From NCBI GenBank assembly GCA_947493325.1, contig CANLQI010000001.1, forward strand, positions 1,255,375 through 1,319,374: 64,000 nt of DNA, in the 5' to 3' direction. A program made the position numbers and the translations under genes. The DNA is from an uncultured Sphingomonadaceae bacterium (GTDB taxonomy: Bacteria; Pseudomonadota; Alphaproteobacteria; Sphingomonadales; Sphingomonadaceae). This document shows, one piece after another, positions 2,472 to 39,834 of this stretch. Each line of letters begins with the position of its first letter. Position 1 is the stretch's first letter. A model generated the notes under the pieces. That model was given only the letters and a program-made list of their open reading frames with translations, ran no database searches and had not been told where the DNA came from.

Positions 2472-2478
2472 TCCGTGC

Positions 2479-2553
2479 TCCTGCGAAAGCAGGAGTCCAG
2501 GGCTATAAACGCAGCGGCAACGAGTAGCGCTCTGGATTCCTGCTTTCGCAGGA
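2479..2553. repeat. REP-like inverted repeat between convergent xerC and gshB
   Basis: Two 25-base arms (2479-2503 and 2529-2553) are complementary with two G-T type mismatches. Each arm is itself a small palindrome around CCTGCGAAAGCAGG. It starts 8 bases after the xerC stop and ends 10 bases before the gshB stop. The same family recurs at 39071-39149 and 51610-51685. Repeats of this type are widespread in alphaproteobacterial spacers, and here it may also serve as a two-way terminator. Confidence 0.85.
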
Positions 2554-37612: not shown

Positions 37613-39184
37613 TCAGTCCAAATTCTTCACAATTTCCTCAACCATTTTCTTGGCGTCGGAAAGTAGCATCATTGTATTGTCCATATAGAAAACTTCATTA
37701 TCAACGCCCGCATAGCCGACCCCGCCCATGGAACGTTTGATAAAGAAAATCGTCTTGGCCTTGTCGACATCAAATACAGGCATGCCGTATATCGGCGAGC
37801 CTTTATCGGTTTTCGCCGCCGGGTTCACAACATCGTTCGCGCCAATGATGAAGGCCACATCCGCCTGTGCGAACTCACTATTGATATCTTCAAGCTCGAA
37901 CACCTCGTCATAGGGCACATTAGCCTCTGCGAGCAGGACGTTCATATGCCCCGGCATCCGCCCCGCCACCGGGTGAATGGCATATTTGACATTCACCCCC
38001 TCTTCTTTCAGCGCATCGGCCATTTCACGCAGCACATGCTGCGCCTGCGCCACCGCCATGCCATAGCCTGGAATAATGATGATATTTTCCGCCTGCTTCA
38101 TCATATATGCGGCGTCCTCGGCGGATCCGCGTTTCCATGGACGGTCGATTTTTTCGCCCTTTTCTCCGCCGCTGGCATCCGCGCCAAAACCGCCGGCGAT
38201 CACGCTGATAAAGCTGCGGTTCATCGCGCGGCACATGATGTAGGACAGAATTGCACCCGACGACCCCACCAGCGCACCTGTGATAATCATCGCCGTATTG
38301 CCCAGTGTAAAGCCCATGGCCGCCGCTGCCCAGCCCGAATAGCTGTTAAGCATCGACACAACGACGGGCATATCCGCGCCGCCGATGGGAATGATGAGCA
38401 GAAAGCCGATCAAGAAGCTGAGCACTGTGATCCAGATAAACAGTTGTCCCTCACCCGCACCACCCGCGGAAGATAGCGTATAGGCGGCAATCATGCCGAG
38501 TATGGCAGCAAGCACGCCCAGATTGATGAAATGCCGCAACGGCAGAAGTATCGGCGACCCGGACATATTGCCGTTGAGTTTCAGGAAAGCGATGACCGAA
38601 CCGCTGAATGTAATCGCGCCAATAGCAGCGCCTAGCCCCAGTTCAACGCGGCTGATAGCGAGTATCTGCCCTGCGCTATCGGTGATACCGAATGCGCCGG
38701 GATTGAGCCACGCCGCAAGCCCGACCAGCACAGCGGCCAAACCCACCAGTGAGTGAAAACCGGCAACAAGCTGCGGCATGGCCGTCATCGCAATCTTACG
38801 CGCAATAGTAAAACCAATCAGCCCGCCGACAATGATCGCGCCGACAATTTCGTAAATATTGGCAAGGTCGTGCGTTATCAGCGTGGTGATAACTGCAATC
38901 GCCATGCCGAACATACCATAGCGGTTGCCTGCACGGCTTGTTTCCGGTGAAGACAGTCCACGCAGCGCCAGAATGAAAAACACACCCGCCACCAGATAGG
39001 CCAAAGCCACCCATGGATTGACCGGCGTAGCGTCTCCGCCCGCGGCCATTGCGGGGGTAGCTATCATAGCCGTCGCCCCTGCGAAGGCAGGGGCCGTTAG
39101 CAATTTCAAACTATGGCAGATAGCGGCCCCTGCCTTCGCAGGGGCGACGCACAATTTAGCAAGACCGGCGAAAATACCCATCAT
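37613..39184 (-). CDS. pntB: NAD(P) transhydrogenase subunit beta
   Basis: 523 residues from ATG at 39184, which overlaps the pntAB stop (ATGA) and so supports this start. The conserved protein begins only near residue 57 (VNPWVALAYLVAGVFFILAL) with about nine membrane helices, then the NADP-binding domain with GYGMAVAQAQHVLREMAD and INVGVA-like NADP contacts (GANDVVNPAAKTDKGSPIYGMP). The first 50 residues contain the translation of a spacer repeat (APAKAGAA ... APAFAGATA). The enzyme couples proton entry to NADPH formation. Confidence 0.92.
   Translation of the reverse strand: MMGIFAGLAKLCVAPAKAGAAICHSLKLLTAPAFAGATAMIATPAMAAGGDATPVNPWVALAYLVAGVFFILALRGLSSPETSRAGNRYGMFGMAIAVITTLITHDLANIYEIVGAIIVGGLIGFTIARKIAMTAMPQLVAGFHSLVGLAAVLVGLAAWLNPGAFGITDSAGQILAISRVELGLGAAIGAITFSGSVIAFLKLNGNMSGSPILLPLRHFINLGVLAAILGMIAAYTLSSAGGAGEGQLFIWITVLSFLIGFLLIIPIGGADMPVVVSMLNSYSGWAAAAMGFTLGNTAMIITGALVGSSGAILSYIMCRAMNRSFISVIAGGFGADASGGEKGEKIDRPWKRGSAEDAAYMMKQAENIIIIPGYGMAVAQAQHVLREMADALKEEGVNVKYAIHPVAGRMPGHMNVLLAEANVPYDEVFELEDINSEFAQADVAFIIGANDVVNPAAKTDKGSPIYGMPVFDVDKAKTIFFIKRSMGGVGYAGVDNEVFYMDNTMMLLSDAKKMVEEIVKNLD
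39071..39149. repeat. Palindromic repeat inside the pntB 5' coding region
   Basis: Arms 39071-39096 and 39124-39149 are a perfect 26-bp inverted repeat with 27 bases between. Each arm is palindromic around CCCCTGCGAAGGCAGGGG. It is the same family as at 2479-2553 and 51610-51685, but here it lies in frame within pntB and is translated. Confidence 0.92.
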
Positions 39185-39465
39185 TTCCGCTCCTTTTTCT
39201 TGTACATGGCCAGCATGCGTTCAGTTACCGCAAAGCCGCCAAAGATATTGATACTCGCCATCACGACAGCGGCGAGGCCCAGATATTTGGCCACAAGCGA
39301 TCCCGCCTCCGCGCTGGCAATCAGCGCCCCGACAATAATCACCGAACTGATCGCATTGGTCACCGCCATCAGCGGCGTATGCAGCGCCGGGGTGACAGAC
39401 CAGACGACATAATAGCCCACAAAACAGGCCATGACGAAAATTGAAAGGATTGATATAAAGTCCAT
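39181..39465 (-). CDS. pntAB: NAD(P) transhydrogenase subunit alpha part 2
   Basis: 94 residues with three or four membrane helices (ILSIFVMACFVGYYVVWSVTP; TPLMAVTNAISSVIIVGALI). It is the separate membrane part of the alpha subunit, as in Rhodospirillum and other alphaproteobacteria. It overlaps pntB by 4 bases, and follows the PH-domain gene by 9 bases. Confidence 0.94.
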   Translation of the reverse strand: MDFISILSIFVMACFVGYYVVWSVTPALHTPLMAVTNAISSVIIVGALIASAEAGSLVAKYLGLAAVVMASINIFGGFAVTERMLAMYKKKERK

Positions 39466-39474
39466 AAGGATGCC

Positions 39475-39834
39475 CTAACGATGAAGTTTATCGGCCATAA
39501 GTTTCTGCATGCCGGAAACATCAGAGTTTTTGGCAATTTTAAATTGAATGGGGTCGCGGCCTGACAGGTATATTTTGATTTCCGCATCCAGATCAAACGT
39601 GCCGGCACTTTCAATGGAATATGCATTGATAGAACGGTAAGGCACTGTCAAATATTCTTTTTTACTGCCCGTCAGACCCTGAACGTCAATATAAATCACG
39701 CGCCAGTCCGTAAACGCAATCCAGTCACGAACTGTTTTGAACACGACCAATACGTCTTCACCTTCGGTCAGGACATGACTGTGCGCTTCTATAAATGCTG
39801 ACGGGTCAGCAGCGCTTGCATTTAACAATCCCAC
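39475..39834 (-). CDS. PH-domain protein within the transhydrogenase operon
   Basis: 119 residues from GTG at 39834. The start shares one base with the pntAA stop (TAGTG), so the two are tightly coupled. The pattern EGEDVLVVFKTVRDWIAFTDWRVIYI and KKEYLTVPYRSINAYSIES is characteristic of bacterial PH-like domains (bPH_1 group). The role of these soluble domains is mostly unknown; no membrane helix or signal peptide is seen. Its place between pntAA and pntAB hints at a link to the transhydrogenase, but I cannot show one. Confidence 0.85.
   Translation of the reverse strand: MGLLNASAADPSAFIEAHSHVLTEGEDVLVVFKTVRDWIAFTDWRVIYIDVQGLTGSKKEYLTVPYRSINAYSIESAGTFDLDAEIKIYLSGRDPIQFKIAKNSDVSGMQKLMADKLHR

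Follow-up and report, generated by a model that had tools for sequence, protein, structure and literature searches.

How does a palindromic repeat come to lie in frame within the 5' end of a gene for a conserved bioenergetic enzyme, and what becomes of the protein segment that it encodes? The question arises at the pntB gene of an uncultured Sphingomonadaceae bacterium, in a 64,000-nucleotide stretch of contig CANLQI010000001.1 (hereafter the window). The pntB start codon (ATG, 39182-39184) overlaps the pntAb stop codon (TGA, 39181-39183) as ATGA, and a sequence-only reading of this DNA had placed a perfect 26-bp inverted repeat in frame between this coupled ATG and the PntB core. Both the coordinates and the reading proved correct: translation from 39184 runs through the element as VAPAKAGA...APAFAGAT, and the outer 26 nt of the two arms match perfectly (Table 1). 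As scanned, the arms span 39071-39099 and 39121-39149 (29 nt each, 97% complementary, with 21 nt between them). A single arm forms a hairpin of its own with a CGTC tag, an 8-bp stem and a 4-nt loop (GCCCCTGC-GAAG-GCAGGGGC), so two small palindromes in inverted orientation make up the whole element. A core 18-mer occurs with no mismatch at 39076-39093 and 39127-39144, and at up to three mismatches the whole window contains three matches to it, compared with 0.05 per shuffle. Folding of the RNA of this region (171 nt) predicts a roughly 25-bp hairpin, with an energy of -87.1 kcal/mol (z -5.95; equalled by 0 of 200 shuffles). Because of the palindrome, a 77-residue antisense open reading frame (ORF; 39018-39251, + strand) encodes a nearly identical peptide, and a PntB search returned it as a self-match on the opposite strand. 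Between pntAa and pntAb, at 39475-39834, is a gene with a bacterial PH domain (PF08000, E = 6.1e-36).

Table 1. Features of the pntB locus (window positions) and of three soluble enzymes of the same genome that carry the repeat in frame (locus positions).
Feature	Position	Strand	Remarks
pntB, NAD(P) transhydrogenase beta subunit, 523 aa from the coupled ATG	37613..39184	-	PF02233, E = 7.8e-191, residues 60-520
pntAb (4TM subunit)	39181..39465	-	PF12769, E = 6.2e-36
AAGGAG, Shine-Dalgarno-like, 5 nt upstream of the coupled ATG	39190..39195	-	also pntAb coding sequence
Signal-peptide-like presequence, 47 codons	39044..39184	-	ends TPAMA before AGGD; putative cleavage, from the AxA motif
CGTC-tagged REP inverted dimer, 79 bp	39071..39149	-	codons 12-38 of pntB from 39184, in frame
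5' arm (pntB sense): CGTC tag, 8-bp stem, GAAG loop	39124..39149	-	encodes VAPAKAGA
Inter-arm spacer, 27 nt	39097..39123	-	by eye similar to the spacers of the L262 and L282 dimers
3' arm, inverted copy	39071..39096	-	encodes APAFAGAT
Alternative ATG (codon 40), directly past the element	39065..39067	-	AGGGG of the element upstream
Class I tRNA synthetase, reads as isoleucyl (IleRS)	L256 10-2592 (G000:C1:177472-181872)		two CGTC REP dimers in frame
Helicase_C_2 helicase	L307 2-2575		in-frame REP dimer, hydrophilic register
Carbamoyl-phosphate synthase small chain	L319 1536-2879		in-frame REP dimer between its two domains, hydrophilic register

The element is a member of a large repeat family of the genome, which comprises 2.57 Mb in 8 contigs. 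A 24-nt arm consensus gave 234 matches at up to three mismatches (115 forward, 119 reverse), compared with two (1 + 1) for a reversed-pattern control, and the first 40 stretches sampled around copies contained 18 inverted dimers, 8 with a tag-to-tag length of 78 bp. It resembles the CGTC-1 REPs as presented in the main text of Di Nocera et al. (2013, PMC3733652) in its CGTC tag (or TGTC, CCTC in that class), present on both window arms; in the 8-bp stem and 4-nt loop; in forming inverted dimers with a spacer of 20-100 bp; in occurring in many copies in alphaproteobacteria, some of them in frame within genes; and in the lack of a dedicated RAYT transposase, none having been reported there for the class. 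The same text describes A-T pairs at stem positions 1 and 2 as "almost invariably" present and a tail that is mostly CCA, both being usual rather than strict traits; unlike such copies, the window copy has G-C and C-G at the first two stem positions, where many other copies in the genome start AT, and has no unpaired CCA tail, its arm continuing with CG. We considered a resident RAYT as the mobiliser and rejected it, since PF01797 had no match in this genome, and matches in 5 of 14 control genomes. Rfam families gave eight matches up to E = 1, all under their gathering scores and mostly microRNA hairpins, which we judged to be chance.

Two genomes of the same genus (G001 and G002), with PntB cores 96% and 94% identical to that of the window, lack the element. 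The distance from the pntAb stop to the equivalent of residue 51 is 66 nt in both and 147 nt in the window, a difference of 81 nt; we used this junction spacing in place of a MAFFT alignment of window and sisters, which misplaced the leader and was set aside. Together with the genome-wide family, the shorter sister junctions uphold the earlier claim that the repeat inserted into coding sequence with the frame kept, and point to a recent event; the comparison with related strains lacking the repeat, suggested in the same reading, reveals a plain signal-peptide-like start. At this position the sisters read MRMLFAGASALLFATPAMA-AG, which resembles a Sec signal peptide, and the window reads MMGIFAGLAKLC, then the element, then AMIATPAMA-AGG.

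Since the element lies upstream of the AxA motif, inside the leader, the mature enzyme is probably free of the insert. Judged from the sequence, the repeat is probably translated within a Sec-type leader ending in TPAMA, and it likely lengthens this discarded leader and not mature PntB. The view that the palindrome creates a new protein segment is therefore unsupported in that wording, and residues 1-51 have pLDDT values under 50 in an AlphaFold model of this PntB, built from 30 sequences (mean pLDDT 69.8, pTM 0.51). In the signal-peptide prediction that had been proposed, made here with simple rules of low specificity, the window leader passes a Sec test (a hydrophobic stretch, with small residues at -3 and -1); the sisters look Sec-like. 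Nine helices of at least 19 residues precede the nucleotide domain in the model. The NADP domain of PntB is cytoplasmic, so that nine membrane helices would leave the PntB N-terminus on the periplasmic side, a location that suits a signal peptide. Among solved bacterial PntB structures, the chains containing the membrane part begin to align at residues 3 to 5 of their own sequence, and are thus without such a leader.

The explanation that we favor, and hold to be probable by a modest measure, is that a CGTC-tagged REP dimer from a large genomic family entered pntB at its 5' end without breaking the frame, and that its site lies within a cleavable Sec-type leader, which begins at the ATG overlapping the pntAb stop. 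We infer that ribosomes would read the element in the frame that makes both arms hydrophobic, that the longer leader would retain a hydrophobic stretch before TPAMA and still send the periplasmic PntB N-terminus outwards, and that signal peptidase would remove leader and element together, leaving the mature enzyme unchanged. Retention would then reflect low cost, close to neutrality, rather than a new function. The hairpin, which begins 35 nt past the coupled start codon, could hinder translation, and this counts against the explanation.

Translation might instead begin past the element, at codon 40 or 46, making the element an untranslated hairpin between pntAb and pntB. We regard such a start as possible but unlikely. 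The ATG at codon 40 follows the element's AGGGG (-5.7 kcal/mol, compared with -6.9 kcal/mol for the coupled ATG); PntB of many relatives starts just ahead of the core, with no leader; and Di Nocera et al. (2013, PMC3733652, main text) suspect that many N-terminal CGTC-1 copies are extragenic. We discarded Shine-Dalgarno strength as proof of the coupled start, because AAGGAG encodes the PntAb tail and also precedes downstream-start junctions (e.g. L036). The overlap of the stop codon had been taken to argue that the coupled start is used; this argument is weakened by the double role of AAGGAG. Against initiation at codon 40, only MIATPAMA would be left ahead of the AxA site, and the leader is conserved at the codon level in sister genomes. 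From the ATG through the AxA motif, sisters L022 and L023 differ by 6 synonymous and 0 nonsynonymous changes (one of them has an extra leading M, which we trimmed off); two more close pairs lacking the element gave synonymous/nonsynonymous counts of 5/0 and 6/0, and the remaining element-free pairs 4/2, 8/2, 6/5, 8/5 and 8/6. Differences that are synonymous only support use of the coupled start in relatives: it is very probably used in the sisters and, by extension from them, would also be used in the window.

To see how often such inserts occur, we examined 209 pntAb-pntB junctions (197 distinct) in three draws. The first comprised 30 loci out of 56 matched relatives plus the genome itself, and the second 79 usable loci of the 80 best (L111, without pntAb, was dropped); the queries for both contained the element peptide. 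The third, whose query did not, took 100 of 381 matched genomes: 80 in score order, skipping those already included (L131-L210), and a final 20 (L211-L230), for which further rows were skipped and which lean to long open frames, a bias for which we also give counts without them. Starts are coupled at 148 of the 197 distinct junctions, a class that by definition is open through the stretch, and 51 of these 148 contain the motif of a signal peptide (P, a small residue, any residue, A, then A or S). In-frame repeats occur at 16 of the 197 junctions, namely at 16/51 coupled junctions with the motif compared with 0/97 without it. When the biased last 20 are left out the counts are 12/46 and 0/84, and among the 80 junctions in score order (7/80 with repeats) they are 7/30 and 0/41. 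A strict hairpin scan alone found 9/51 and 0/97 (p = 4e-5), against a background of 7 in 209 pntAb coding regions. Our first motif pattern could match the PAKAG and PAFAG of the element itself; a rerun without G in the last place left the sets unchanged.

Thirteen of the carriers have a CGTC REP (L021, L025, L070, L142, L143, L145, L159, L182, L192, L213, L223, L226 and L229), some recognized by eye from the peptide; L070 is a Qipengyuania flava record (DSM 16421). In the other three (L067, L071 and L166, by eye) a second palindromic repeat family, read as SLR...ASLLAMT, occupies the same position in the PntB leader. All 16 carriers have a PAxA[AS] motif after the element, 7 or 9 residues before the core. 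The hydrophobicity rule is passed by 15 of the 16 (all but L070), and also by 66 of 132 other coupled starts; as many of these are short and make implausible leaders, its specificity is low. Where the start lies downstream, 15/49 junctions contain an arm in the interval from the pntAb stop to the core, mostly in the spacer, as initiation past the element would have it. In L068, L093, L119 and L125 the first in-frame start codon comes before or within the 3' arm; the arms there are likely, but not certainly, untranslated. In L061 (Stakelama marina) and L075 (a MAG), the spacer between pntAb and pntB is filled by G+C-rich palindromic repeats of yet other kinds.

The usual arms read VIPAKAGI (5') and WIPAFAGMT (3') in the one frame of three that is hydrophobic in each; for the usual 3' arm one frame ends in a stop, and the remaining frames are charged. 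The hydrophobic-type register of the 3' arm is used by 8/8 strictly detected coupled arms compared with 6/13 downstream-start arms (p = 0.018), and this uniformity in the coupled class, set against the mixture in the downstream class, argues against an untranslated element. Counted by lineage, partly by eye, the 3' arm is in the same register in 11 of 11 CGTC lineages (0.0005 if each had a chance of one half), and its peptide is hydrophobic in 10 of the 11, with mean hydropathy from 0.9 to 1.6. The exception, L223/L226, uses the usual 3' register but reads PRIKSGVT (mean hydropathy -0.4), which counts against the explanation that we favor; its other open frame, TPDQVRGD, is more hydrophilic still. 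These two loci read the 5' arm in a different register and contain no in-frame ATG between element and core, only GTG or TTG, a point against initiation past the element. They show a weak excess of synonymous change in the element (18/53 sites vs 21/124, p = 0.017). The 5' arm register did not differ significantly between coupled and downstream-start junctions (5/7 vs 4/12, p = 0.17).

The repeat is read differently in soluble proteins of the same genome. Among 80 stretches with 146 arms, 39 ORFs of at least 130 aa contain an arm, many of them probably shadow ORFs. We scanned 20 of the 39 with Pfam and matched 7 (2/10 and 5/10); the count omits one degenerate arm, in an ORF for a glycyl-tRNA synthetase beta chain. 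Clear in-frame dimers were found in a class I tRNA synthetase (two dimers), a Helicase_C_2 helicase, which we take to be DinG-like, and the carbamoyl-phosphate synthase small chain. All four dimers inside these soluble enzymes are in hydrophilic registers (e.g. RHSGESRN, DPGFRRGD), and the register common to the 11/11 CGTC lineages at PntB is used by 0/4 of them. In PrmC, a beta-propeller protein and a NUDIX protein, arms occur only ahead of the domains and are possibly extragenic.

Does the recurrence reflect many insertions, or one? A quick PntB tree (128 rows, LG+G4, 39/125 inner branches open) included 20 rows that we chose to add, 11 of them carriers and 9 relatives lacking the element; L179 and L183 are absent from it. 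A branch with support 96 separates all 16 carriers from the 14 spacer cases that the tree includes. L143/L145 is one event and L223/L226 probably one, leaving likely about a dozen independent insertion events. A single ancestral insertion in the clade, followed by gene-conversion overwriting and many losses, would account for the similar insert position among carriers, for the recurrence of ATGACGATG at the 3' edge in several, and for the apparent homology of L223 and L226. We consider it very improbable: on the tree, with its purposely added rows, the fewest changes come to 15 for 16 carriers, the second repeat family sits at the same place in three of them, and in the window the arms are nearly perfect and the sisters' leader is uninterrupted.

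Arms are also concentrated at this junction whether or not they are translated, occurring at 17/108 short pntAb-pntB junctions compared with 3/85 between pntAa and pntAb and 10/107 in the 250 bp after pntB. This fits either an insertion preference or an RNA role, in which the element would be kept as a hairpin, either protecting the upstream pnt transcript against decay from its 3' end or adjusting the translation of pntB, the protein reading being a tolerated by-product. The very stable fold of the RNA is in keeping with such a role, as are L143 and L145, two species in which leader and element DNA are identical save one base next to a diverged stretch (codons 10-41, 0 synonymous and 1 nonsynonymous differences; next stretch, 7 synonymous); no codon-level selection on the element is seen in this pair, for which recombination and RNA-level constraint are both candidate causes. 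Insertion preference would give equal enrichment, and both same-genus genomes and 35 of the 51 coupled junctions with the motif lack the element, which leads us to rate the RNA role as improbable, slightly below initiation past the element.

Returning to a translated, low-cost insert in a removed leader, we tentatively put forward a broader proposal, which we think somewhat more apt to fail than to hold: that the PntB signal peptide in one Sphingomonadaceae clade is a recurrent landing pad, where dimers of at least two families, in about a dozen independent insertions, are translated and survive in one register, hydrophobic in all but one of the CGTC lineages. A selfish palindrome would thereby come to serve a signal peptide as a functional hydrophobic segment, only to be discarded afterwards, with protein context sorting the frames, hydrophilic ones persisting in soluble enzymes.

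In-frame REPs and a repeat-derived signal peptide are already known; in the literature searched, their repeated occurrence at a single gene and the choice of register there look new, and it is for these that the window element, an ordinary REP by sequence, is unusual. Rickettsia palindromic elements (RPEs) were reportedly described by Ogata et al. in work from 2000 and 2002. As the cited accounts portray them (PMC2229807, PMC3733652), RPEs are likewise palindromic repeats kept in frame in conserved protein genes, and the R. conorii CGTC-1 repeat is equated with RPE-6 (PMC3733652). The window element differs in its host, a member of the Sphingomonadaceae and not Rickettsia, and mostly in sequence, the link being one of class through CGTC-1/RPE-6; known RPE examples lie within enzymes (e.g. 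guanylate kinase), whereas the window element probably lies in a removed leader. Among CGTC-1 REPs, in-frame copies in genes are known, and the main text of PMC3733652, which doubts translation of many N-terminal copies where the window copy is probably translated, nowhere names transhydrogenase or pnt. The Yersinia RU-2/YPAL repeat in YPO1552 is described as one repeat-derived signal peptide (Delihas, 2007, PMC2759123), in a single small putative exported protein according to that account; here the host is a conserved bioenergetic enzyme, the repeat a REP dimer, and the pattern recurs across a bacterial family. In titles and opening abstracts of the open-access literature, with subscription papers mostly outside this scope, we found no report of REPs in PntB or of repeated capture by one signal peptide. 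The junctions turn a single anecdote into a countable natural experiment, in which the same kind of repeat is found many times at one site and its reading frame is sorted by what the protein segment must do. Whether N-terminal REPs are translated, and why intragenic REPs are tolerated, thus becomes testable in cultured species such as Qipengyuania flava.

Other repeat-related features were seen in passing. The tRNA synthetase gene in L256 also carries a third, different repeat-like insert (SPLSFRGGAGGGGLPDS...HPNPSPKGEGL), and a separate hairpin repeat, GCTCCTGCGAAAGCAGGAGC (e.g. window 2478-2495), has 21 identical copies among the G000 places listed. The prmC gene (L253 104-1039) may take its start codon from a REP, at the ATGACG with which the repeat ends.
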